Made by a program: the position numbers and the translations under genes
In this document: piece by piece, positions 5,702 to 28,960 of the stretch
Numbering within the stretch: position 1 is the first letter of the stretch
Layout of the letters: every line of letters begins with the position of its first letter
NCBI GenBank assembly: GCA_027482245.1
Contig: JAIXWG010000053.1
Location: 1 to 64,000, forward strand
From: Acetobacteraceae bacterium
Lineage (GTDB): Bacteria > Pseudomonadota > Alphaproteobacteria > Acetobacterales > Acetobacteraceae
Reading direction: 5' to 3'
DNA: 64,000 bases
The notes under the pieces: generated by a model
Told to the model about the DNA's origin: nothing
What the model saw: the letters and a program-made list of their open reading frames with translations, nothing else
Database searches by the model: none

Positions 5702-5870
5702 CGGGCGGTTCCCCCTGGGGTTGGGCGCGGAGGATCGCCCAGCGCGGCGGGGCGCGGAAGGGGCCCGTGGCTGATCCTGCCACGGAATCGCTGCCACCAG
5801 AGCATCATCCCCCTGCAACGGCCCTGTCATACGGTGCATGTATAGCCCGCACCATCGAAGGGCGGCGGGG

Positions 5871-6698
5871 ATGCTTGAGCTCCAGGGTCTGACACGGCGG
5901 TTCGGATCGGTGACGGCGGTGAACGATGTTCGCCTCTCGATCCCGGACGGCCAGATGGTGGGGGTGATCGGCCGCTCCGGCGCGGGGAAATCCACGCTGC
6001 TGCGGATGATCAACCGCCTGACCGAACCCTCCGAGGGCCGCATCCTGCATGACGGGCGCGACATCACCGCGCTGCGCGGCGCCGCGCTGCGGCGCTGGCG
6101 CACGGACTGCGCCATGATCTTCCAGCAGTTCAACCTGGTGCAGCGGCTGGATGTGCTGACCAACGTCCTGGTCGGCCGGCTGAACCACCGGCCGGGCGTG
6201 ATGGGCACGCTGACCAGCCTGCTCTGCCTGTTCACCGCCGAGGAACGGGCGCTGGCCATCCAGGCGCTGGACCGGTTCGACCTGGCCGACACCGCGCTGC
6301 AGCGCGCCGATACGCTGTCCGGCGGCCAGCAGCAGCGCGTCGCCATCTGCCGCGCCCTGATGCAGGAGCCGAAATTCATCCTGGCCGACGAGCCGATCGC
6401 GAGCCTCGACCCGCGCAACGCGCGGACGGTGATGGAGGCGCTGCGCAAGGTGAACCGGGAGGATGGCATCACGGTGCTGACCAATCTCCATCACCTCGAC
6501 ACCGCCCGCCACTACTGCGACCGGATCGTCGCCATGCAGGCCGGCCGCGTGATGTTCGATGGCCCGCCCGCCGCGCTGACCGGGGAGCGGGTGCGCGAGA
6601 TCTATGGCGTGTCCGAGGACGAGTTCGACGAACAGGCCGAGGAGGCGGTGAAGCCCCAGGCCCAGCGCACGCCGAAGGCCGGTCTCGCGGTCGCCTAA
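5871..6698 (+). CDS. phnC: Phosphonate/phosphite-type ABC transporter ATP-binding protein
   Basis: Walker [16 protein letters not shown], signature [15 protein letters not shown], PhnC-like [12 protein letters not shown]. Confidence 0.88.
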
Positions 6699-6746
6699 CC
6701 GGGCGGCGGGATCGGCGGCGTTCTTCCACCAACCGGAGAGACCCGC

Positions 6747-7712
6747 ATGATCACCCGTCGCCTGATGCTGGCCGCTGCCGCGGCGGCCCCCTTTCCCGCG
6801 CTTGCCCAAGGGCAGGCCCCCGCCATGCCCGCGCCAGGCCGCCGCGCCTGGGCGCAACAGGTCCCCCAGATCCGCATCGGCCTGCTGGGGGGCGAGAACG
6901 AGGCCGACCGGCTCGGCCGCTACGACGCCTATCGCCAGTTGATCGAGACGACCTTCGGCGTGCCCGTGCGCCTCTTCCCGGCCTCCGACTATGCCGGCGT
7001 GATGCAGGCCTTCAGCGCGCGGCAGATCGAGATGTCGAGCATGGGCGCCTCCGCCTATGCCGGCGCCTGGCTCGACACCAACGGCGCGGTGGAGCCGCTC
7101 TTCGTGGCGCGGGAAGCCGATGGCAGCATCGCCTACATCTCCGTCATGGTGGTCCGCGCCGACAGCGGCATCACGAGCCTGGAGGAGCTGCGCGGCAAGT
7201 CGCTCGCCTGGGCGGACCCGAACAGCACCAGCGGCTACCTGGTGCCGCGGAGCGAGCTGCGGGCGGCCGGGATCAACACGGAAAGCGGCCAGTACTTCGC
7301 CCGCACCGGCTTCGGCGGCGGGCATGAACAGGCGGTGGTCGCGGTGATGCAGCGCCAGTATGATGCGGCCGTGACCTGGGCCTCCGGCCAGGGCGACGAA
7401 GCGCAGGGCTTCACCCGCGGCAACCTTCGCGCCATGGTCGAGAAGGGGATGCTGAACATGCGCGACCTGCGGATCATCTGGCGGTCCCGCCCGATCCTGA
7501 ACGGCCCCTGGACCGTCCGGAAGGACCTGCCGGATGCCTTCAAGGCGGACATCACCGCCTTCCACCTGGCGCTGGCGACATCCCACCCGCAGATCTACGC
7601 GCAGGTCGAACGCGGCGGGGGCCTGGGCTATGCCCGGGTGACGCATGAGCAGTTCGAGCCGATCGTGCAGCTGCGCCGCGAGGAAGCGGCCGAGCGTCGC
7701 CGGCGCAGCTAG
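6747..7712 (+). CDS. phnD: Phosphonate/phosphite-type ABC transporter periplasmic binding protein
   Basis: Signal peptide; PhnD-like IRIGLLGGENEADRLGRYDAYRQLIETTFGVPVRLFPASDYAGVMQAF. Confidence 0.86.
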   Translation: MITRRLMLAAAAAAPFPALAQGQAPAMPAPGRRAWAQQVPQIRIGLLGGENEADRLGRYDAYRQLIETTFGVPVRLFPASDYAGVMQAFSARQIEMSSMGASAYAGAWLDTNGAVEPLFVAREADGSIAYISVMVVRADSGITSLEELRGKSLAWADPNSTSGYLVPRSELRAAGINTESGQYFARTGFGGGHEQAVVAVMQRQYDAAVTWASGQGDEAQGFTRGNLRAMVEKGMLNMRDLRIIWRSRPILNGPWTVRKDLPDAFKADITAFHLALATSHPQIYAQVERGGGLGYARVTHEQFEPIVQLRREEAAERRRRS

Positions 7713-7714
7713 GC

Positions 7715-8626
7715 GTGTCCGCGGCGCTCCCCCTTCCCCGCCTTCCCGCCGTCACGCGGATCGAGGCGGATTACCAGGCGGCGCGCCGCGCCCGCCGCAA
7801 CGCCACCCTGCTCTGGGGTGGCGTGCTGCTGGTCTGCATCTACGTCGCGGCGCTGGTGAGCGAGGCCTCCCCCGCCGCGATCCTGGCCGGGCTGCCGCGC
7901 ATCGGCGAGTATTTCTGGCGCACGCTCCCGACCTTCCGCTGGGACGTGTTCTTCGCGAACTGGGAGACGGAGGGCAGCTTCGCCTCCTGGATGTATCGCG
8001 CCGACAAATGGGCCTGGCTGATCTTCGAGACAGCGCAGATGGCCCTGCTGGCGACGCTGGGCGGCACGCTGGCGGCACTCGCCCTGTGCTTCCCGGCGGC
8101 GCGCAACATGGCGCCGAACGCCTGGGTGTACCACCTGTCCCGCCGCTTCCTGGAAGTGTGCCGGACGGTGCCGGAGATCGTCTTCGCGCTGATCTTCGTC
8201 TGGGCCTTCGGGATCGGCCCGCTGGCCGGCATCCTGGCCATCGCCATCCACACCATCGGCGCCAATGGCAAGCTGTTCGCGGAGGTGGTGGAGAATGCGG
8301 AACCGGGGCCGGTGGAGGGCGTGCGCGCCGTCGGCGGCAACTGGTTCCACCGCGCCCGCTTCGGCATCCTGCCGCAGGTCGCGCCCAATTTCCTCAGCTA
8401 CGCCCTGCTGCGCTTCGAAGTGAATGTGCGCGGCGCCAGCGTCATCGGCTTCGTCGGCGCGGGCGGCATCGGGCAGGAACTCTACCAGGTGATCGCCTTC
8501 AACTACTATGAGGAGATCAGCGCCATCGTCGTGCTGATCATCCTGGCCGTCGCGCTGATCGACGTGGTGTCGGAGAAGCTGCGCATGGGGCTGAACGCGG
8601 CCGCCACGCGCGGCAGCAGGGGCTGA
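7715..8626 (+). CDS. phnE: Phosphonate-type ABC transporter permease (GTG start)
   Basis: Multi-TM permease with EAA-like loop; phnCD-phnE operon context. Confidence 0.85.
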   Translation: MSAALPLPRLPAVTRIEADYQAARRARRNATLLWGGVLLVCIYVAALVSEASPAAILAGLPRIGEYFWRTLPTFRWDVFFANWETEGSFASWMYRADKWAWLIFETAQMALLATLGGTLAALALCFPAARNMAPNAWVYHLSRRFLEVCRTVPEIVFALIFVWAFGIGPLAGILAIAIHTIGANGKLFAEVVENAEPGPVEGVRAVGGNWFHRARFGILPQVAPNFLSYALLRFEVNVRGASVIGFVGAGGIGQELYQVIAFNYYEEISAIVVLIILAVALIDVVSEKLRMGLNAAATRGSRG

Positions 8627-8631
8627 CGGCG

Positions 8632-9495
8632 ATGGCGCTGGCACGCCCCACCCCGGAGCAGGTCGCCGCACTCCGCGCCCGCTACCCCCGCGCCTTCGGC
8701 GCCACGCCCGCGACGCGCGCGCTGCGTGCCATCGGCTGGGCGGCGGCGCTGGGCTGGCTGGCCTTCCTGTTCTGGTGGTTCGACATCACGCCCGCCCGGC
8801 TGTGGAACGGGCTGTCGGGCCTTGGCACCATCGTCACGCTGATGATCCCGCCTTCCCCCGGGGAGCAGTGGGAGGAGATCCTGAAGGGCATCGCGGAGAG
8901 CATCGCGATGGCCTTCCTCGGCACGCTGGCGGCCGCGATCATCGCCGTGCCGCTCGGGTTCCTGGGCGCCAACAATGTGGTGACGAATGCGCTGGCGCAT
9001 TTCTCCCTGCGGCGGGTGTTCGATGGCTTCCGCGGCGTGGACCAGCTGATCTGGGCGCTGGCCTATGTGCGCGCCGTGGGCCTGGGCCCGCTGGCGGGCG
9101 TGCTGGCCATCGCGACCGCCGACATCGCCGTGCTGGCCAAGCTGTATGCCGAGGCGATCGAGAATGCGGAGAAGCGCCAGGCGGAGGGGATCGATGCCGT
9201 CGGCGGCAACCGGCTGCTCCGCACCCGCTTCGGGCTGCTGCCGCAGGTACTGCCGGTGATGGTGGCGCAGGCGCTGTATTTCCTCGAGTCCAACACGCGG
9301 TCGGCGGCGATCCTGGGCGTCGTGGGGGCGGGCGGGATCGGGCTGCAGATCGCGGAGCGGATCAAGGTCCGCTACTGGGACGAGGTCGCCTTCATCATCA
9401 TCCTGATGATCCTGGCCGTGGCGCTGATCGATACACTGTCGTCGCGCATCCGCCGCCGCCTGATCGGGGACCGGGACGGCATCGCGAAGCGCTGA
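8632..9495 (+). CDS. phnE: Phosphonate-type ABC transporter permease, second PhnE paralogue
   Basis: NAEKRQAEGIDAVGGNRLLRTRFGLLPQVLPVMVAQALYFLESNTRSAAILGVVGAGGIG. Confidence 0.85.
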   Translation: MALARPTPEQVAALRARYPRAFGATPATRALRAIGWAAALGWLAFLFWWFDITPARLWNGLSGLGTIVTLMIPPSPGEQWEEILKGIAESIAMAFLGTLAAAIIAVPLGFLGANNVVTNALAHFSLRRVFDGFRGVDQLIWALAYVRAVGLGPLAGVLAIATADIAVLAKLYAEAIENAEKRQAEGIDAVGGNRLLRTRFGLLPQVLPVMVAQALYFLESNTRSAAILGVVGAGGIGLQIAERIKVRYWDEVAFIIILMILAVALIDTLSSRIRRRLIGDRDGIAKR

Positions 9496-9540: not shown

Positions 9541-9822
9541 ATGATCCTGCAACTCGACCCGCCGCTGCCGATGACGACGCCGAAGGGCGAGGGCATCGCG
9601 CATTTCCTCATCGACTATGGGGCGGAGACGCACCTGATGTGGGTCGTCTTCATGGATGCCGACGGGTCCTGCTGGACCGTCCCGAACCCGGAGGTGCGGA
9701 TGGCACCGAACTGGTCCCTGGGACGCCGGCCGCTGCGGGCGCCGCGGGTGCCGGCGCCGGCCAATGAATCACGCATCGATCCGGCCGCGGTGGCGGCTGC
9801 TAATGGCCTGCCGCTGAAATAG
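9541..9822 (+). CDS. Hypothetical protein
   Basis: 93-aa ORF downstream of phnE; MILQLDPPLPMTTPKGEGIAHFLIDYGAETHLMWVVFMDADGSCWTVPNPEVR. Confidence 0.65.
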   Translation: MILQLDPPLPMTTPKGEGIAHFLIDYGAETHLMWVVFMDADGSCWTVPNPEVRMAPNWSLGRRPLRAPRVPAPANESRIDPAAVAAANGLPLK

Positions 9823-10945
9823 CGTCCTCGTACCAGCCGACGTCGAGGGTCGCGACCTCCCCGAACGGCACGCCCTGCCGCGCGGCGTCGCGGATGATGG
9901 GCCAGGAGGTCCAGGGCATGGCCAGCAGCGGCCAGGGGTCGCGCGCCTGCCAGCAGACGTCGCGCGTCGTCACCAGGCGCTTGAGGTTGGCGCCGAAGGG
10001 ACCGCCCTTGAAGAGGGAGAGCTGGGTCTCCGTCAGGCAGGACCAGAATTGCTGCAGCGTCCGTTCCGGCCGGTGGCGGGGTGGCGGCGCGGTCGGGACG
10101 GCGAGGCTTCTCGCGATGTCGGCAGGCTCGAAGAAATGCAGGCCGCTGGTGGTGCGGGGATTGCACTCGATGCCCCAGGGCGTGCCGGCCTGGTCCACGA
10201 TCAGGTCGAAGCTGATGAAGCCGGACCAGTTCGCACGCTCGATGAAGCGCGCCGTCCAGGCCTCGATTGCCGGATGGTCCACGCGTTCGAAGGACACGGC
10301 GACCGATCCCGAGAATTGCGCGCCGCGATAGACGGTGGTGCCGAGCACGCGGCCCTGATGCGCGAGGGAGCAGGTGCTGAACTCCTCGCCCGCGACCAGG
10401 CGCTGGACGAGGTGGGGGTCGGCTTCGCTGGGCAGGGGATCGCCGGCGGCGAGGCGGCGGACGCCGCGGCCGGAGCAGCTATGGACGGGCTTCACCACCA
10501 CCGCGGCGGCGCGCGCCAGCGCCTCGGCTTCCGGCGTGCCGAGCGGCAGGCTCTCCGGCACCGTCACGCCGTAGTCGAGCCCGGCACGGACGAAACCGCC
10601 CTTGTGGTGCAAGGCCAGGACCTGGTCGGGCGGCATGGTGGCGACGCGCGCGCCGGGCGGCAGCAGGGGCGGGAGATGCGCGACATGCATCGTCTCCTCC
10701 GACACCGGCAGGATGAGTTCGGCATGTTCCTCGCGGACGATGCGCGCGAGCGATTCCAGGTAGGCGCGCTTGCCCTGAGCGGGCGCGGGCACGCGGACGG
10801 AGCGCGCGACATCGCGGGAGGAGCCGCAGAGATGGCGCGCGAAGGGCTCCGCCACGACCACGCGCCAGCCGATCGAGGCAAAACCGCGCGCGAGGTCCAG
10901 CGCCTTGGGCAGCCGTCCCAGCGTCAGCACCACCGTCCGCGTCAT
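9800..10945 (-). CDS. ATP-grasp domain protein of unknown specificity
   Basis: MTRTVVLTLGRLPKALDLARGF...VVKPVHSCSGRGVRRL...WGIECNPRTTSGLHFF; overlaps the P450 by 4 bp. Confidence 0.8.
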   Translation of the reverse strand: MTRTVVLTLGRLPKALDLARGFASIGWRVVVAEPFARHLCGSSRDVARSVRVPAPAQGKRAYLESLARIVREEHAELILPVSEETMHVAHLPPLLPPGARVATMPPDQVLALHHKGGFVRAGLDYGVTVPESLPLGTPEAEALARAAAVVVKPVHSCSGRGVRRLAAGDPLPSEADPHLVQRLVAGEEFSTCSLAHQGRVLGTTVYRGAQFSGSVAVSFERVDHPAIEAWTARFIERANWSGFISFDLIVDQAGTPWGIECNPRTTSGLHFFEPADIARSLAVPTAPPPRHRPERTLQQFWSCLTETQLSLFKGGPFGANLKRLVTTRDVCWQARDPWPLLAMPWTSWPIIRDAARQGVPFGEVATLDVGWYEDAISAAGH

Positions 10946-12315
10946 CGCGCGCGCGTCACCCGGCACATGACCTGGCGCGTCGGCCGCGTGGTCAGCCGCG
11001 CGGCGGGGCGGACGGCGCCGGGGTTCTCCACCGTGAAGTCGAAATGGCGGAAGAGCCGCGCGATCAGCAGCGTCGCTTCCACCGTCGCGAAGGCGGCGCC
11101 GGCGCAGATGCGCGGGCCGATGCCGAAGGGGATGTAGGCGCCCTGCGTCAGTTCCGATTTCCGTTCCGGCGTGAAGCGGTCGGGGTCGAAGACGTTGGGG
11201 TCCTTCCAGTAGAGGCGGTGGCGGTGGAGCACCCAGGGCGCCACCATGATCAGCGCGCCGCGCTTCACGCGATACTCGCCGATGCGCGTCGCCTCGTTGG
11301 CCACGCGCGGCAGGAAGGTGATGGGGGGGTAGAGGCGCAGCGTCTCGTTGAAAACGTTGCGCGTGAAGACAAGGCGTTTCGTCTGTTCGAAGGTGATGGG
11401 GCCATCGCCGCAGACGTCGGAGACCTCGGCCCGGATGCGCGCCACGAGTTCCGGGCGCGTGGCCAGCAGATAAAAGCACCAGGTGAGCGCGCTGGCGCTG
11501 GTCTCGTGCCCCGCCAGGAACAGCACGCCGAGCTGGTCGATCAGCTCCTCCCGCGTGAAGGCCTTGCCATCGACATCATGGGCGGCGACGACGGCGCTGG
11601 CGATGTCGTCGAAGCTCTGGCCGGCATCGAGGTGGCTGTCCAGCAGATCACCGAGGCAGCGGCGGATCAGCCGGCAGCTGTCCAGCACCGCCTGGGTCTG
11701 CGGAATCTTCGTCCAGGCGCGATCCATGATGAGGCGGCGGATCTCCACCTGCGCGACGCTGCGCTCGAAGAAGGTGAAGGCGTCGAAGACCTCATGCGCC
11801 ACGGTCGTGGCCAACGAGGTGGAGAAGACGGAGCGGCAGATGATGTCGGCCGTCAGGTGGCTCATGGCGAGGTCGAGCGAGAAGGTCTCCCCGGATTGCG
11901 CCTGGCGGTGCAGTGTCTCCTCATACTCGAGGGCGCCGGCCTCCATGCTGGCGAAGGCGCGGTTCACGCGCATCAAGGTCAGCGCGGGGTCCATCATCGT
12001 GCGCTGGCGCTTCCAGGTGGCGCCGTTGCTGACGAAGATGCTGTCGCCGATCAGCGGCTCCAGCGCATTCACCATCAGGTCCGATTTCGGGAAGATGCCC
12101 TGCGCATCGACCAGCACGTCGCGCACCAGCTTCGGCTCGTTCACGACGACGATGGAGCGGCGCGAATAGCCGAGCGGCCCGATCGGCATGCGGTAGGCCT
12201 CGGCGGGCAGCAGGCCGAGCAGATTGCCCTCCCCCTGCAGCAGTGCGCGGAACAACGAGACGATGGGGGAGCGCGGCGTGGGGTGCGGCGGGATGAAGGG
12301 GGCGGTCATCGACAT
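10942..12315 (-). CDS. Cytochrome P450
   Basis: I-helix FLAGHETSASALTW, ETLRLYPP, heme motif PFGIGPRICAGAAFA. Confidence 0.93.
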   Translation of the reverse strand: MSMTAPFIPPHPTPRSPIVSLFRALLQGEGNLLGLLPAEAYRMPIGPLGYSRRSIVVVNEPKLVRDVLVDAQGIFPKSDLMVNALEPLIGDSIFVSNGATWKRQRTMMDPALTLMRVNRAFASMEAGALEYEETLHRQAQSGETFSLDLAMSHLTADIICRSVFSTSLATTVAHEVFDAFTFFERSVAQVEIRRLIMDRAWTKIPQTQAVLDSCRLIRRCLGDLLDSHLDAGQSFDDIASAVVAAHDVDGKAFTREELIDQLGVLFLAGHETSASALTWCFYLLATRPELVARIRAEVSDVCGDGPITFEQTKRLVFTRNVFNETLRLYPPITFLPRVANEATRIGEYRVKRGALIMVAPWVLHRHRLYWKDPNVFDPDRFTPERKSELTQGAYIPFGIGPRICAGAAFATVEATLLIARLFRHFDFTVENPGAVRPAARLTTRPTRQVMCRVTRAR

Positions 12316-12346: not shown

Positions 12347-12364
12347 TGTCAAGTGGCATTGTCA
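12347..12364. promoter_or_regulatory. Degenerate PpsR/CrtJ-like site in divergent promoter (TGT-N12-TCA)
   Basis: TGTCAAGTGGCATTGTCA between P450 and membrane-protein starts; differs from TGT-N12-ACA at one base. Confidence 0.4.
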
Positions 12365-12388: not shown

Positions 12389-13135
12389 ATGGAGCTGCTG
12401 GTGTTCCATGGCCTCATCGCGGCGCATATCGCCACGGGCAGCACGGGGGCGCTGGCCTTCTGGGTGCCGGTGATCGGGCGCAAGGGCGGCGTGAACCATG
12501 CGCGCTGGGGCAAGGTCTTCACCTACGCCATGTTGGCGACGGGCAGCTTCGCCGTGTGCATGAGCCTGATGACGCTGGCGGACCCCTTCGGCACGCATCC
12601 GCACCTCGCGGATCGGTTCGATGCGAATTTCATCCGCGGGCTGTTCGGCTGGATGATGCTGCACACGGGCATCCTGACGATCAACCTGGCCTGGTATGGC
12701 TGGCTCGCCATCCGCAACAAGGGGCGGCATGCGCTGAACCGGACGCCCCTGAACGTGGCGCTGCAATACGCAGTGATGGCGGCCGCCGTGGCCTGCGCCG
12801 TCGATGGGTGGCTGATCGGGCAGTACCTGATGATCGGCATCGCGGTGGTCGGCGTGGCGACGGGGCTCACGAATCTCTGGTTCATCCACAAGCCGCGCAC
12901 GGAGCGCGCGGACTGGCTGAAGGAGCACATCAAGGCCTTGGTTGGCGCGGGCATCAGCGTCTACACGGCCTTCATGGCCTTCGGATCGGTGCGCGTCTTC
13001 CCCGAATTGGCGCTGCATCCCGGCATGTGGTCGGTGCCGCTGATCGTGGGCCTCGCCATCATCATCTGGCACCGGCTCGACATCGACCGGAAGGCTCGGC
13101 GGGTGCGGGCGCGGCGGGTGGGGGCGGCGGCCTGA
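12389..13135 (+). CDS. Polytopic membrane protein of unknown function, upstream of crtD
   Basis: MELLVFHGLIAAHIATGSTGALAFWVPVIGRKGGVNHARWGKVFTYAM...; 5-bp gap to crtD. Confidence 0.8.
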   Translation: MELLVFHGLIAAHIATGSTGALAFWVPVIGRKGGVNHARWGKVFTYAMLATGSFAVCMSLMTLADPFGTHPHLADRFDANFIRGLFGWMMLHTGILTINLAWYGWLAIRNKGRHALNRTPLNVALQYAVMAAAVACAVDGWLIGQYLMIGIAVVGVATGLTNLWFIHKPRTERADWLKEHIKALVGAGISVYTAFMAFGSVRVFPELALHPGMWSVPLIVGLAIIIWHRLDIDRKARRVRARRVGAAA

Positions 13136-13140
13136 CGACC

Positions 13141-14622
13141 ATGCGCGTGGTGGTGATCGGCGCCGGCATGGGCGGGCTGGCCGCGGCCACGGACCTGGCG
13201 CGGCGCGGCGCGGAGGTCACGGTGCTGGACCGCGCGGCGGCCGAGGGCGGCAAGGCGCGGCACGTGATGGTGGACGGCGCCGGCATCGATGGCGGCCCCA
13301 CCGTCTTCACCATGCGCTGGATCTTTTCGGGTCTCTTCGAGGATTGCGGCCGGCGGATCGAGGATTTTCTCGAGCTGCACGCGGCGGAGACGCTGGCGCG
13401 GCATGCCTGGCGTAGGGGCGGCAGGCTCGACCTGTTTGCCGATGTGGAGCGTAGCGCCGACGCGATCGGGGAGTTCGCCGGCGCCGCCGATGCGCGGGGC
13501 TACAAGGACTTCGTCGCGCGCAGCAGCGACATCTTCGCCACGCTGAAGGACAGCTTCATCGCGGGGCAGCGCCCCTCGCCGCTCGACCTGGTGCGGCGGG
13601 TCGGGCTGTCACGACTTGATGCGCTGTGGCGGACCATGCCCTGGGCGACGATGTGGCAGGCGCTGGGCGGGTACTTCACCGATCCCCGGCTGCGCCAGCT
13701 CTTCGGCCGCTACGCCACCTATTGCGGCTGCTCCCCCTTCCTGGCGCCGGCGACGCTGATGCTGGTGGCGCATGTGGAGCAGGACGGCGTCTGGCTGGTG
13801 AAGGGCGGCATCCGCCGCGTCGCCGCCGCGATCCGCGAACTGGCGGAAAGCCAGGGTGCGCGCTTCCGCTTCGGGGCGGAGGCCGCGGAGATCATCGTCG
13901 AGGGCGGTCGCGTGGTCGGCGTGCGGCTGATGGATGGCGAGCGGATCGAGGCCGATGCCGTCGTCTTCAACGGCGACGCCGCGGCACTCGGCCAGGGGAT
14001 GCTGGGCGAACGTGCGCGGCGCGGGCTGCGGGACACGCCGCGGGCGGCGCGCTCGCTCTCCGCCATCACCTGGTGCGTGAAGGCGCCGACGCAGGGCTTC
14101 CCGCTGACGCATCACAACGTGTTCTTTGCCGAGGACTATGCCGAGGAGTTCGATGCGGTATTCCGCCGGCGGCAGGTAACGGCGGCGCCGACCGTCTATC
14201 TCTGCGCCCAGGATCGCGGCCATGGCGAGGTCGCCGATGGCACGGCGGAGCGCATGCTGCTGCTGGTCAATGCGCCGGCGGATGGCGATCGCGGCGAGCC
14301 CGATCCGCTGGTGCTGCGCGACATCGAAAGCCGCAGCTTCGGCCTGATGCGCGATTGCGGGCTGGAGATCGGACAGGGCCACAGCGTCACGACGACGCCG
14401 GCCGGTTTTCATCAGTTGTTCCCGGGCACGGGCGGCGCGCTGTACGGCCGCGCGAGCCATGGCGCCACGGGCACCTTCGCGCGGCCTGACGCCGCGGGCG
14501 GCGTGCGCGGGCTGTATCTCGCCGGTGGGTCCGTGCATCCCGGCCCGGGCATCCCCATGGCGGCGATGTCCGGGCGACTCGCTGCCGCGAGGCTGCTCGA
14601 GGATTCCGTCAGCCGGCCCTGA
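13141..14622 (+). CDS. crtD: Methoxyneurosporene-type carotenoid 3,4-desaturase
   Basis: FAD-binding VVVIGAGMGGLAAATDLARRGAEVTVLDRAAAEGGKARHV, YLAGGSVHPGPGIPMAAMSGRLAA. Confidence 0.87.
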   Translation: MRVVVIGAGMGGLAAATDLARRGAEVTVLDRAAAEGGKARHVMVDGAGIDGGPTVFTMRWIFSGLFEDCGRRIEDFLELHAAETLARHAWRRGGRLDLFADVERSADAIGEFAGAADARGYKDFVARSSDIFATLKDSFIAGQRPSPLDLVRRVGLSRLDALWRTMPWATMWQALGGYFTDPRLRQLFGRYATYCGCSPFLAPATLMLVAHVEQDGVWLVKGGIRRVAAAIRELAESQGARFRFGAEAAEIIVEGGRVVGVRLMDGERIEADAVVFNGDAAALGQGMLGERARRGLRDTPRAARSLSAITWCVKAPTQGFPLTHHNVFFAEDYAEEFDAVFRRRQVTAAPTVYLCAQDRGHGEVADGTAERMLLLVNAPADGDRGEPDPLVLRDIESRSFGLMRDCGLEIGQGHSVTTTPAGFHQLFPGTGGALYGRASHGATGTFARPDAAGGVRGLYLAGGSVHPGPGIPMAAMSGRLAAARLLEDSVSRP

Positions 14623-16150
14623 CCAGCGTCGCGCCATGCGGCACGACCTGGTCGAGGATCTTGGCGGAACTGACCACACCCGGCACGCCCGCGCCGGGAT
14701 GCGTGCCGGCACCGACCAGGTAAAGGCCGCGCACCTCCTCGCTGACATTGTGCGGGCGGAACCAGGCGGACTGGAACAGCTGTGGCTCCAGCGAGAAGGC
14801 GGCGCCGTTCACCGACAGCAGCCGGTCGCGGAAATCCTGCGGCGTCAGAAGGCGCGACGTTACGATGGAATCGCCGAGCCCCGGCAGCACCGTCTGCTCC
14901 AGCCGCTGCTGGATGGCGGCGCGATAGGGCTCCGCCTGCGTCGCCCAATCCGTCCCGCTGCCGAGATGCGGCACCGGCGAGAGCACGTAGAAGCTGTCGC
15001 AGCCCGGCGGCGCCAGCGACGGGTCCGTCGCCGTCGGCCGGTGCAGGTAGAGCGAGAAATCCTTCGCCAGCCGCTTCCGCTTGAAGATGTCCGCCAGCAG
15101 TTCCCGGTAGCGCGGGCCGAGCACCATGGTGTGGTGATAGACATCGTCGAAGCGACGGTTGGTGCCGAAATACCAGACGAAGAGCGACATGGAGTAGCGC
15201 GTGCGCGCGACCTTCGCGTCCGTCCAGCGCTTCCGCGGATGCTCGCTGAGCAGCTTCGAATAGGTCCAGCCGACATCGGCGTTGGAGACGACGACATCGG
15301 CGGCGATGGTCTCCCCGCCGCGCAGGCGCACACCGGTCGCCTTGCCATCCGCGACGGTGATCTGCTCGACCTCCGCATGGTAGCGCAGGCGGCCGCCCTG
15401 GCCCTCGATCAGCCCGACCAAGCCGTTCACCACCGCGCCCATGCCGCCCATGGCGTAGTGCACGCCGTGCAGACGCTCCAGATGCGCGATCAGGCAGTAA
15501 TAGGCCGTCGTCGTCAGCGGATTGCCGCCGATCAGCAGCGGATGGAAGCTGAAGGCGATGCGCAGCTTGTCGTTGGTGAAGTAGTCGCTGACCTTGCCAT
15601 AGACCGTGCGCCAGCCGCCGAGCTTCATCATGTCCGGCACCGCGGCCAGCAGCGTGGAAAGCTGGTGGAAGGGCTGGTCGGCCAGCTTGGCGAAGGCGAT
15701 GTCGAAGATGCGCTCGCTGACGGCGATGAACCGCTCGAAGCCCGGCAGGTCCTCCGGCGCGATGCGTGCAATCTCGGCGCGCGTGGCATCGAGGTCGGCG
15801 GAGCAGTTCATCACCGTGCCGTCGTCGAAGCGGATCTGGTAGAAGGGGTTCATCGCCCGCAGGTCGAGATCATCCGCCATGCGGCGCCCACACAGCGTCC
15901 AGAGTTCCTCCAGCAGGTAGGGCGCGGTGATGATGGTGGGACCGGCATCGAAGGTGAAGCCGTCCTGCCGGTAGACATAGGCGCGGCCGCCGGGGGCATC
16001 CAGCTTCTCCAGCACCGTCACGCGCCAGCCGCGCGCGCCGAGCCGGATGGCGGCGGCAAGCCCGCCGAAGCCGGAGCCGATGACGATGGCATGCGGGCGC
16101 GGATCCTGCGCGGCCGCGGCCATTCCCTGGAAGGCGATGCCGTCCATCAT
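14609..16150 (-). CDS. crtI: Phytoene desaturase
   Basis: IVIGSGFGGLAAAIRLGARGWRVTVLEKLDAPGGRAYVYRQDGFTFDAGPTIITAPYLLEELW; C-term YLVGAGTHPGAGVPGVVSSAKILD. Confidence 0.93.
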   Translation of the reverse strand: MMDGIAFQGMAAAAQDPRPHAIVIGSGFGGLAAAIRLGARGWRVTVLEKLDAPGGRAYVYRQDGFTFDAGPTIITAPYLLEELWTLCGRRMADDLDLRAMNPFYQIRFDDGTVMNCSADLDATRAEIARIAPEDLPGFERFIAVSERIFDIAFAKLADQPFHQLSTLLAAVPDMMKLGGWRTVYGKVSDYFTNDKLRIAFSFHPLLIGGNPLTTTAYYCLIAHLERLHGVHYAMGGMGAVVNGLVGLIEGQGGRLRYHAEVEQITVADGKATGVRLRGGETIAADVVVSNADVGWTYSKLLSEHPRKRWTDAKVARTRYSMSLFVWYFGTNRRFDDVYHHTMVLGPRYRELLADIFKRKRLAKDFSLYLHRPTATDPSLAPPGCDSFYVLSPVPHLGSGTDWATQAEPYRAAIQQRLEQTVLPGLGDSIVTSRLLTPQDFRDRLLSVNGAAFSLEPQLFQSAWFRPHNVSEEVRGLYLVGAGTHPGAGVPGVVSSAKILDQVVPHGATLVRAG

Positions 16151-16172: not shown

Positions 16173-16610
16173 TCAGGCGAGGCTGAGGGTCGCCCAGGCG
16201 AGGACGACGTAGCGGGCGGTCTTGGCGATGGCGACCAGCAGCAGGAAGGTGGCGATCGGCTCCTTCAGCACGCCGGCGACGAGCGTCAGCGGATCGCCGA
16301 TGATCGGCGCCCAGCTCATCAGCAGGGACCAGCGGCCCCAGCGATGGTACCAGCCCGTGGCGCGATCCAGCGCGGCGGGCGGCACGGGGAACCAGCGCCG
16401 GTCGCGGAAGCGGTCCACCTGCCGGCCGAGCCACCAGTTGAGCACGGCGCCCAGCGTGTTGCCGATGCTGGCGACCAGCACCAGCAGCCAGGCGGGCGTC
16501 TCGCCCAGCAGCAGCAGGCCGACCAGCACGGGTTCGGATTGCAGGGGCAGCAGGCTGGCCGCGCCGAAGGCGGAGGCAAACAACCCGATCAGTTCGGCCA
16601 GGCGTGTCAT
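16173..16610 (-). CDS. YqaA/SNARE-associated (DedA-like) family membrane protein
   Basis: SEPVLVGLLLLGETPAWLLVLVASIGNTLGAVLNWWLGR...LMSWAPIIGDPLTLVAGVLK. Confidence 0.8.
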   Translation of the reverse strand: MTRLAELIGLFASAFGAASLLPLQSEPVLVGLLLLGETPAWLLVLVASIGNTLGAVLNWWLGRQVDRFRDRRWFPVPPAALDRATGWYHRWGRWSLLMSWAPIIGDPLTLVAGVLKEPIATFLLLVAIAKTARYVVLAWATLSLA

Positions 16611-25391: not shown

Positions 25392-25409
25392 TGTCAAGCA
25401 ATACTGACA
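25392..25409. promoter_or_regulatory. PpsR/CrtJ-like site upstream of bchC
   Basis: TGTCAAGCAATACTGACA, exact TGT-N12-ACA. Confidence 0.75.
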
Positions 25410-27562: not shown

Positions 27563-27619
27563 CCCAAGTCAACGGGTTTCGCCCCGATACCCGACGGCGC
27601 GCCACCGAGGAGCCTTCCC

Positions 27620-28960
27620 ATGGAAGCAGGTGCCAGGGCCGCAGGCGCTGCCGGCGCGCCCCATCGCATCGTCGTGGTGGGGGGTGGGGCGGCGGGGCTG
27701 GAACTCGCCACCCGGCTCGGCGACCGATACCGGGACGGGCGGCGCGCGACCGTCACGCTGGTGGAGAAGGCGCGCACCCATCTCTGGAAGCCGCTGCTGC
27801 ATGCCGTCGCCGCCGGCAGCATGGACCGCGCGCAACATGAGCTGAACTACCTGGCCCAGGCGCATTGGCACCACTTCACCTACCGGTACGGGGAGATGGT
27901 GGGGCTGGACCGTGCGGCGAAGGCGATCGAGCTGGGTGCCATGCTGGACGATGAGGGGCGGGAGATCACGCCCGCGTCGCGGCTGGGCTACGACACGCTG
28001 ATCATGGCGGTCGGCAGCGTGACGAATGATTTCGGCACGCCCGGCGCCGCGCGCCACGCCATCCCGCTGGAGACGCCGGAACAGGCCAGCCGCTTCAACC
28101 GCCGCCTGGTGAATGCGTGCCTCCGCGCCAATGCGCAGGAGGAGCCGGTGCGGCCGGGCCAGCTGCACATCGCCATCATCGGCGCCGGCGCGACGGGCAC
28201 GGAACTGGCGGCGGAGCTGCACCGGACGGTGCGCGCCGTGGTCGCCTACGGGCTCGACCGCATCAGGCCGGAACAGGACATCCGCATCGTGCTGGTGGAG
28301 GCCGCGCCACGCATCCTGCCCGCGCTGCCGGAGCGGATCTCGGAGGCCACGACCAGGCTGCTGGAGCAGATGGGCGTGGAGGTGAAGACCGGCACGCGCG
28401 TCGCCGAGGTGCGCGCGGATGGCGTGGTCTTCGCCGATGGCGCGCTGCTGCCGGCGGAGCTCGTCGTCTGGTCCGCGGGGGTGAAGGGGCCGGACTTCCT
28501 GAAGGACCTCGGCGGGCTCGAAACCAACCGCATCAACCAGATCGTCGTGCAGCCCACGCTGCAATCGACGCGCGACCCTGCCGTCTTCGCGATCGGCGAC
28601 TGCGCCGCCTGCCCGCGCGGCGAAGGCGCCTGGGTGCCGCCGCGGGCGCAGGCGGCGCACCAGCAGGCGGCCCACCTGTTCACGCAGATCGACACCATCA
28701 TCGCGGGCGGCACGCCGGCGCCCTTCGTCTATCGCGACTTCGGCTCGCTGGTCTCCCTCGGCAAATACAGCACCGTCGGCAGCCTGATGGGTTTCCTCGT
28801 CGGCAAGTCGATGTTCATCGAGGGCTATTTTGCCCGTCTCATGTACCGGTCGCTCTACAAGATGCACCAAACGGCGCTGCATGGCAGCGCGCCGACGCTG
28901 TGGCGGACGCTGGCCGGGCTGGTCAGCCAGCGGGCGGAGCCGGGTGTGAAGCTGCATTGA
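27620..28960 (+). CDS. ndh: Type II NADH dehydrogenase (NDH-2), FAD-dependent
   Basis: HRIVVVGGGAAGLELATRLGDRY...IAIIGAGATGTELAAEL...VFAIGDCAACP. Confidence 0.9.
   Translation: MEAGARAAGAAGAPHRIVVVGGGAAGLELATRLGDRYRDGRRATVTLVEKARTHLWKPLLHAVAAGSMDRAQHELNYLAQAHWHHFTYRYGEMVGLDRAAKAIELGAMLDDEGREITPASRLGYDTLIMAVGSVTNDFGTPGAARHAIPLETPEQASRFNRRLVNACLRANAQEEPVRPGQLHIAIIGAGATGTELAAELHRTVRAVVAYGLDRIRPEQDIRIVLVEAAPRILPALPERISEATTRLLEQMGVEVKTGTRVAEVRADGVVFADGALLPAELVVWSAGVKGPDFLKDLGGLETNRINQIVVQPTLQSTRDPAVFAIGDCAACPRGEGAWVPPRAQAAHQQAAHLFTQIDTIIAGGTPAPFVYRDFGSLVSLGKYSTVGSLMGFLVGKSMFIEGYFARLMYRSLYKMHQTALHGSAPTLWRTLAGLVSQRAEPGVKLH

Follow-up and report, generated by a model that had tools for sequence, protein, structure and literature searches.

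A divergent cytochrome P450, ATP-grasp and membrane-protein gene triad as a probable carotenoid-tailoring module of aerobic anoxygenic phototrophs

What are a cytochrome P450 and an ATP-grasp enzyme doing beside the carotenoid genes of a phototroph? The question is raised by the first 64,000 nucleotides of contig JAIXWG010000053.1 (assembly GCA_027482245.1, Acetobacteraceae bacterium), the whole stretch of DNA that was analysed and that we call the window. A first-pass annotation had proposed that the two genes are an accessory module acting on a carotenoid, a quinone or some other photosynthesis-linked metabolite. From gene conservation and neighbourhood we consider it probable that the two, together with a divergently transcribed membrane-protein gene, serve aerobic anoxygenic phototrophs as a carotenoid-tailoring module; quinones and bacteriochlorophyll appear unlikely as targets.

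Architecture of the triad and its gene products

The P450 gene (10942-12315, minus strand; 457 aa) is followed by the ATP-grasp gene (9800-10945, minus strand; 381 aa, with its ATG at 10945 and its stop at 9800) as the second gene of the operon. Their ORF coordinates bear out the 4-bp overlap described in the first-pass annotation: the P450 stop and the ATP-grasp start share an ATGA (10942-10945, minus strand), which is likely to couple their translation. In 63 of the 65 relatives measured the two genes either overlap by 1-8 bases or lie no more than 13 bases apart, and in 42 of the 65 the spacing is exactly -4. Across a gap of 73 bp, the short intergenic region over which the pair had correctly been said to diverge from a membrane protein/crtD operon, lies the gene of MEM248, a membrane protein of 248 aa (12389-13135, plus strand). 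Homologous loci show the unit to be a divergent triad, MEM248 facing P450 and ATP-grasp; the pair recognised earlier stands, but this third constant partner had been overlooked. All three are maintained proteins, since their dN/dS values against close relatives (0.10-0.32) indicate purifying selection. Clustering of all ORFs gave no further partner gene at the frequency of the triad, though it was swamped by the antisense ORFs of GC-rich DNA. Past MEM248 the window continues with crtD (1-hydroxycarotenoid 3,4-desaturase; 13141-14622, plus strand; NF045637, 654 bits, cut-off 580), crtI (phytoene desaturase, a frequent neighbour of the triad; 14609-16150, minus strand), a VTT-domain membrane protein of 145 aa (16173-16610, minus strand) between crtI and pufC, and pufCML. 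The VTT-domain gene is kept beside crtI in 17 of 41 loci. At the opposite end a phnCDE-like transporter operon (5838-9495, plus strand) stops just by the ATP-grasp gene, a position that it holds only in the closest Falsiroseomonas relatives. Inside the photosynthesis cluster, an NDH-2-like pyridine nucleotide-disulphide oxidoreductase gene (27569-28960, plus strand) adjoins crtE.

The divergent promoter holds an operator-like element of the form TGACA-N8-TGACA, TGTCAAGTGGCATTGTCA (12347-12364, no strand assigned), with one mismatch to TGTC-N10-GACA. The earlier description of this element as PpsR-like survives in part: it ends in TCA and so lacks the strict TGT-N12-ACA palindrome of PpsR/CrtJ, but it is conserved beyond chance, because the best site agrees at 9/10 positions with TGTCA-N8-TGACA in 52 of 67 loci and a mere 0.6% of dinucleotide shuffles reach 9. 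The Novosphingobium loci do have strict TGT-N12-ACA sites in this intergenic region. In reverse, read towards the P450, the element is TGACAATGCCACTTGACA, whose TTGACA half can serve as a -35 box in that direction; downstream of this half most relatives have TGTAAAG. Control of the candidate element by PpsR is plausible. Elsewhere in the window TGT-N12-ACA palindromes, more numerous than expected by chance, lie at 25392, 27545, 32369 and 52933, near bchC, crtE, bchE/crtB and bchF; the first three are perfect TGTCA-N8-TGACA and fall inside the photosynthesis cluster.

On its score to PF00067 (246.6 bits, cut-off 22.8; E=6e-73) and its motifs, the larger enzyme is a cytochrome P450; the I-helix A-G-x-E-T (AGHETS), ExxR (ETLR) and the haem-cysteine signature FxxGxxxCxG (FGIGPRICAG) are all intact, as had been reported. 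In a profile search its best relative in the PDB was LUT5/CYP97A3 (222 bits, E=8e-65), a distant one in a database that samples P450s thinly; as a pointer to a carotenoid substrate the relationship is suggestive. The second enzyme is a member of the ATP-grasp superfamily by score, fold, and conserved lysine and E-x-N-x-R residues. It scores 31.2 bits against PF02655 (ATP-grasp_3; cut-off 23.2) and matches NF005315 (PRK06849) over its full length at 216.1 bits, short of the equivalog cut-off of 406; it appears to represent a distinct clade related to PRK06849. Residues K115, K152, D247, E260, N262 and R264 are invariant in 47 sequences, and so is the ECNPR stretch with its E-x-N-x-R residues. 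The AlphaFold model (pLDDT 93) resembles the CPSase-like, PurK, L-amino-acid ligase and PylC folds, a likeness that does not specify the substrate, and a search of solved structures gave no match with the sequence and weak generic ones with the profile. Characterised ligases of this fold generally act via an acyl-phosphate intermediate; non-amide products are also made by ATP-grasp enzymes. Sampling across the class for the ATP-grasp turned up no more than the window's genome and two distant relatives, both in operons of another kind. A PRK06849-type ATP-grasp gene recurs in four loci (L211, L212, L213, L214) in an operon with KASIII, NAD-dependent epimerase-like, MBL hydrolase and F390-synthetase-like genes, joined additionally by a Rieske or GNAT protein.

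MEM248 is predicted to have seven helices (structure model pLDDT 91), and its fold had no PDB match at E<=0.001. The window protein itself matched no Pfam family, PF10067 (DUF2306; gathering cut-off 31.6 bits) included; weak matches to PF10067 were obtained for 29 of 42 orthologues, and MEM248 orthologues have a KGG..H and an H..GA..TAF-like pattern in common with relatives that pass the cut-off, which suggests a remote relationship to DUF2306. Looser homologues (ca. 40% identity) lie directly 3' of pufC in several Sphingomonadaceae (L255-L260, L262, L264, L265) and other remote ones in housekeeping loci, so the superfamily is broader than the module. No P450 of the window type was recognisable near either kind of homologue, and we have accordingly toned down the idea that MEM248 proteins are partners of P450s only.

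Distribution and linkage to carotenoid genes

Among 150 genomes of the window's family (Acetobacteraceae), 11 carry an ATP-grasp orthologue (57-63% identical), each adjoining a P450 orthologue (67-75% identical), and MEM248 and the P450 are found in the same 13 genomes (Fisher p=5e-19, a descriptive value that ignores shared ancestry). The genomes G103 and G109 have the P450 (56% identical) and MEM248 and lack the ATP-grasp gene; the proposed oxidation and ligation are therefore separable, and oxidation can by implication stand alone. PufLM is present in 52 of the 150 genomes and in 10 of the 11 with the triad; the exception is an assembly of 80% completeness in which a bchO-like fragment shares the contig of the triad. 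Since 40 of the 52 PufLM-bearing members have no triad gene at all, the triad is optional for phototrophy; the full set occurs in 10 of the 52, in line with the earlier placement of the pair outside the canonical photosynthesis gene cluster set.

The GTDB species genomes were scanned with the ATP-grasp alignment by means of conserved peptides of the window's clade, and the best 80 of 229 loci were kept, so that remote ATP-grasp members are under-sampled. These best 80 loci come from Falsiroseomonas, Roseomonas-type genera, Roseococcus, Rubritepida, Paracraurococcus, Dankookia, Plastoroseomonas and others, and further from Novosphingobium, Sphingomonas, Rhabdaerophilum, a Beijerinckiaceae MAG and a Steroidobacteraceae MAG (the names of some MAGs should be taken with care). 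Where these loci extend far enough upstream (63 of the best 80), the divergent triad is recovered by strict matches in 62 and by ORF coordinates in the remaining one (L172). The order MEM248 / P450-ATP-grasp is common to Acetobacteraceae, Sphingomonadaceae, Rhizobiales-type genomes and the Steroidobacteraceae MAG. The optional character of the triad among phototrophs would suit genes that share no function and became neighbours by chance, or were recently inserted by lateral transfer at the edge of the cluster; this explanation is contradicted by the conservation of order and sequence (the arrangement persists in several taxonomic orders at 55-75% identity, under the dN/dS values given above), and its probability is negligible.

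The first-pass annotation had called for a survey of the neighbourhoods against pufLM, and its outcome favours a link to phototrophy, since the pair does not sit mostly in non-phototrophs or in unrelated surroundings: PufLM was found in 43 of the 47 host genomes searched (from the best 80 of 229 loci), and the four without it are metagenome-assembled. A carotenoid gene lies within 5 kb of the triad in all 52 loci that have both flanks (again from the best 80 of 229), and bch or puf genes are visible in only 30 of these. The linkage to the photosynthesis cluster noted earlier thus holds in that the triad often lies near bch/puf, but several genomes carry it on another contig, still beside crt genes: in Plastoroseomonas arctica (G028) and in G141 triad and puf are on different contigs, and the triad adjoins crtD or crtI. 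The Novosphingobium triad adjoins crtI and crtB; a CrtI that is 69-80% identical stands by the triad in most Acetobacteraceae loci, and crtD adjoins MEM248 in most loci, a usual, not invariant, neighbour. G109 has crtD, crtC and P450 in this order on one strand, with MEM248 adjoining, and the GTG start of its P450 falls within the crtC stop (GTGA, a 4-base overlap). Of all single observations, this overlap in our view speaks most strongly for a C40 substrate of the CrtC/CrtD type, and the neighbourhoods together suggest that the triad is tied primarily to carotenoid genes and less to the photosynthesis gene cluster.

This pattern bears on the alternative that the P450 and the ATP-grasp enzyme act on a quinone, a bacteriochlorophyll intermediate or another non-carotenoid compound and have only their regulation in common with photosynthesis genes. 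In many hosts the triad does lie in or near the photosynthesis gene cluster, and its promoter element resembles PpsR sites; triads unlinked from bch/puf nevertheless stay with crt genes, and in G109 the P450 overlaps crtC itself, so we hold this alternative to be improbable. Among the targets first proposed, crt linkage thus favours the carotenoid, at the expense of quinones and other metabolites. The window's genome has a second carotenoid locus (C48:994-7982, L209) with crtC, a crtD paralogue, and PpsR-like, phytochrome-like and haem-oxygenase-like genes; the paralogue is 57% identical to the crtD2 of a relative and scores 504 bits to NF045637, below the cut-off. In several relatives crtC and crtD2 adjoin the triad.

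Proposed chemistry and its significance

For the carotenoid-tailoring module we infer the substrate, the order of reactions, the ligation partner, the role of MEM248 and the control by PpsR from the genomic evidence above. The most likely substrate would be a C40 carotenoid of the spirilloxanthin series, supplied by CrtI/CrtB/CrtC/CrtD, which the P450 would oxidise so that it carries a hydroxyl, aldehyde or carboxyl group, either in an end group or on a methyl. This step would require MEM248, which might, e.g., bind the pigment within the membrane or present it to the enzyme. Where present, the ATP-grasp enzyme would turn a carboxylate into an acyl phosphate and join a small nucleophile to it, such as an amine or amino acid; the pigment would thereby become more polar. 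The complete oxidise-then-ligate chemistry is a tentative proposal, less likely to be right than wrong. Its specific form is put forward with similar caution: the P450 may make an acyclic C40 carotenoid carboxylate to which the ATP-grasp enzyme adds an amine or amino acid, the product being an amide-linked polar carotenoid and the DUF2306-like protein an obligate P450 partner, which would be a previously undescribed step. To our knowledge, ATP-dependent ligation is not an established carotenoid-tailoring reaction. In open-licence papers we found no report of the module or of a P450 and an ATP-grasp enzyme with a carotenoid or photosynthesis gene cluster, and nothing relevant on DUF2306 with a carotenoid.

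It is also conceivable, if rather unlikely, that the P450 and MEM248 are the carotenoid enzyme and that the ATP-grasp enzyme has its role elsewhere, e.g. in conjugating a breakdown product or a lipid. The P450 and MEM248 do occur without it in G103 and G109, and its distant relatives sit in KASIII/F390-synthetase-like/MBL operons that have no P450; against this, the spacing between the two genes is tight in 63 of 65 loci, and every ATP-grasp orthologue in the family sample of 150 genomes is accompanied by the P450.

Roseococcus thiosulfatophilus offers a further alternative, since its strain RB-3 carries the module (L171) and a C30 carotenedioate and its diglucosyl ester are reported for this species (PMC12654162): the module might make such a polar C30 carotene-dioate or its esters. 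RB-3 and the window's genome, however, both keep a C30-type desaturase/oxidase pair apart from the module, on a different contig, and three other module hosts (G084, G148, G074) have no close C30 pair. The known C30 pigments therefore do not need the module, and we consider this alternative very unlikely. The C30-like cluster of the window's genome (C37:125785-131128; L210:7756-13128) comprises two CrtI-family genes in tandem, accompanied by acyltransferase-like and glycosyltransferase-like genes; the second CrtI-family gene has close copies in 8 of 13 genomes checked. A blue-shifted LH1 (856 nm) is listed for R. thiosulfatophilus and Paracraurococcus ruber (PMC12654162). Both are triad hosts, a coincidence that is only a lead to a link with the module.

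If the triad does tailor a carotenoid, phototrophs of a widespread group would have a branch of carotenoid chemistry that is so far undescribed; their carotenoids, abundant and in part polar, are poorly tied to genes. Cultured hosts (Roseococcus, Rubritepida, Falsiroseomonas, Paracraurococcus, Novosphingobium) and the natural variants with and without the ATP-grasp gene make the idea directly testable.

Comparison with known systems

The triad sits among the carotenoid genes (crtBCDEFI) of the canonical photosynthesis gene cluster and is kept in phototrophs, but, unlike them, it is optional; the relevant parts of two reports (PMC3176799, PMC12654162) name genes of aerobic phototroph clusters, and the triad is not among them. 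In Methylobacterium a glycosyltransferase and an acyltransferase act on a C30 dioic acid (PMC10448405). The C37 cluster resembles these Methylobacterium genes (PMC10448405), which like the triad, as proposed here, tailor a carotenoid to a polar product; where hosts have such a cluster, it is separate from the triad. MEM248 shares with the DUF2306 family the sequence pattern given above, and differs in its length of about 250 aa, its seven helices and the constant position of its close orthologue group beside the P450. The relatives seen for the PRK06849 family lie in small biosynthetic operons with KASIII, MBL, F390-synthetase-like and Rieske genes and, in contrast to the window's gene, have no P450 beside them. 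The closest solved-structure relatives of the window P450, the plant CYP97 enzymes (LUT5/CYP97A3), are known to act on carotenoids; CYP97 hydroxylates ring carotenes in plastids, whereas the window P450 adjoins genes of the acyclic pathway (crtC, crtD) and, unlike CYP97, is paired with an ATP-grasp enzyme and a membrane protein.
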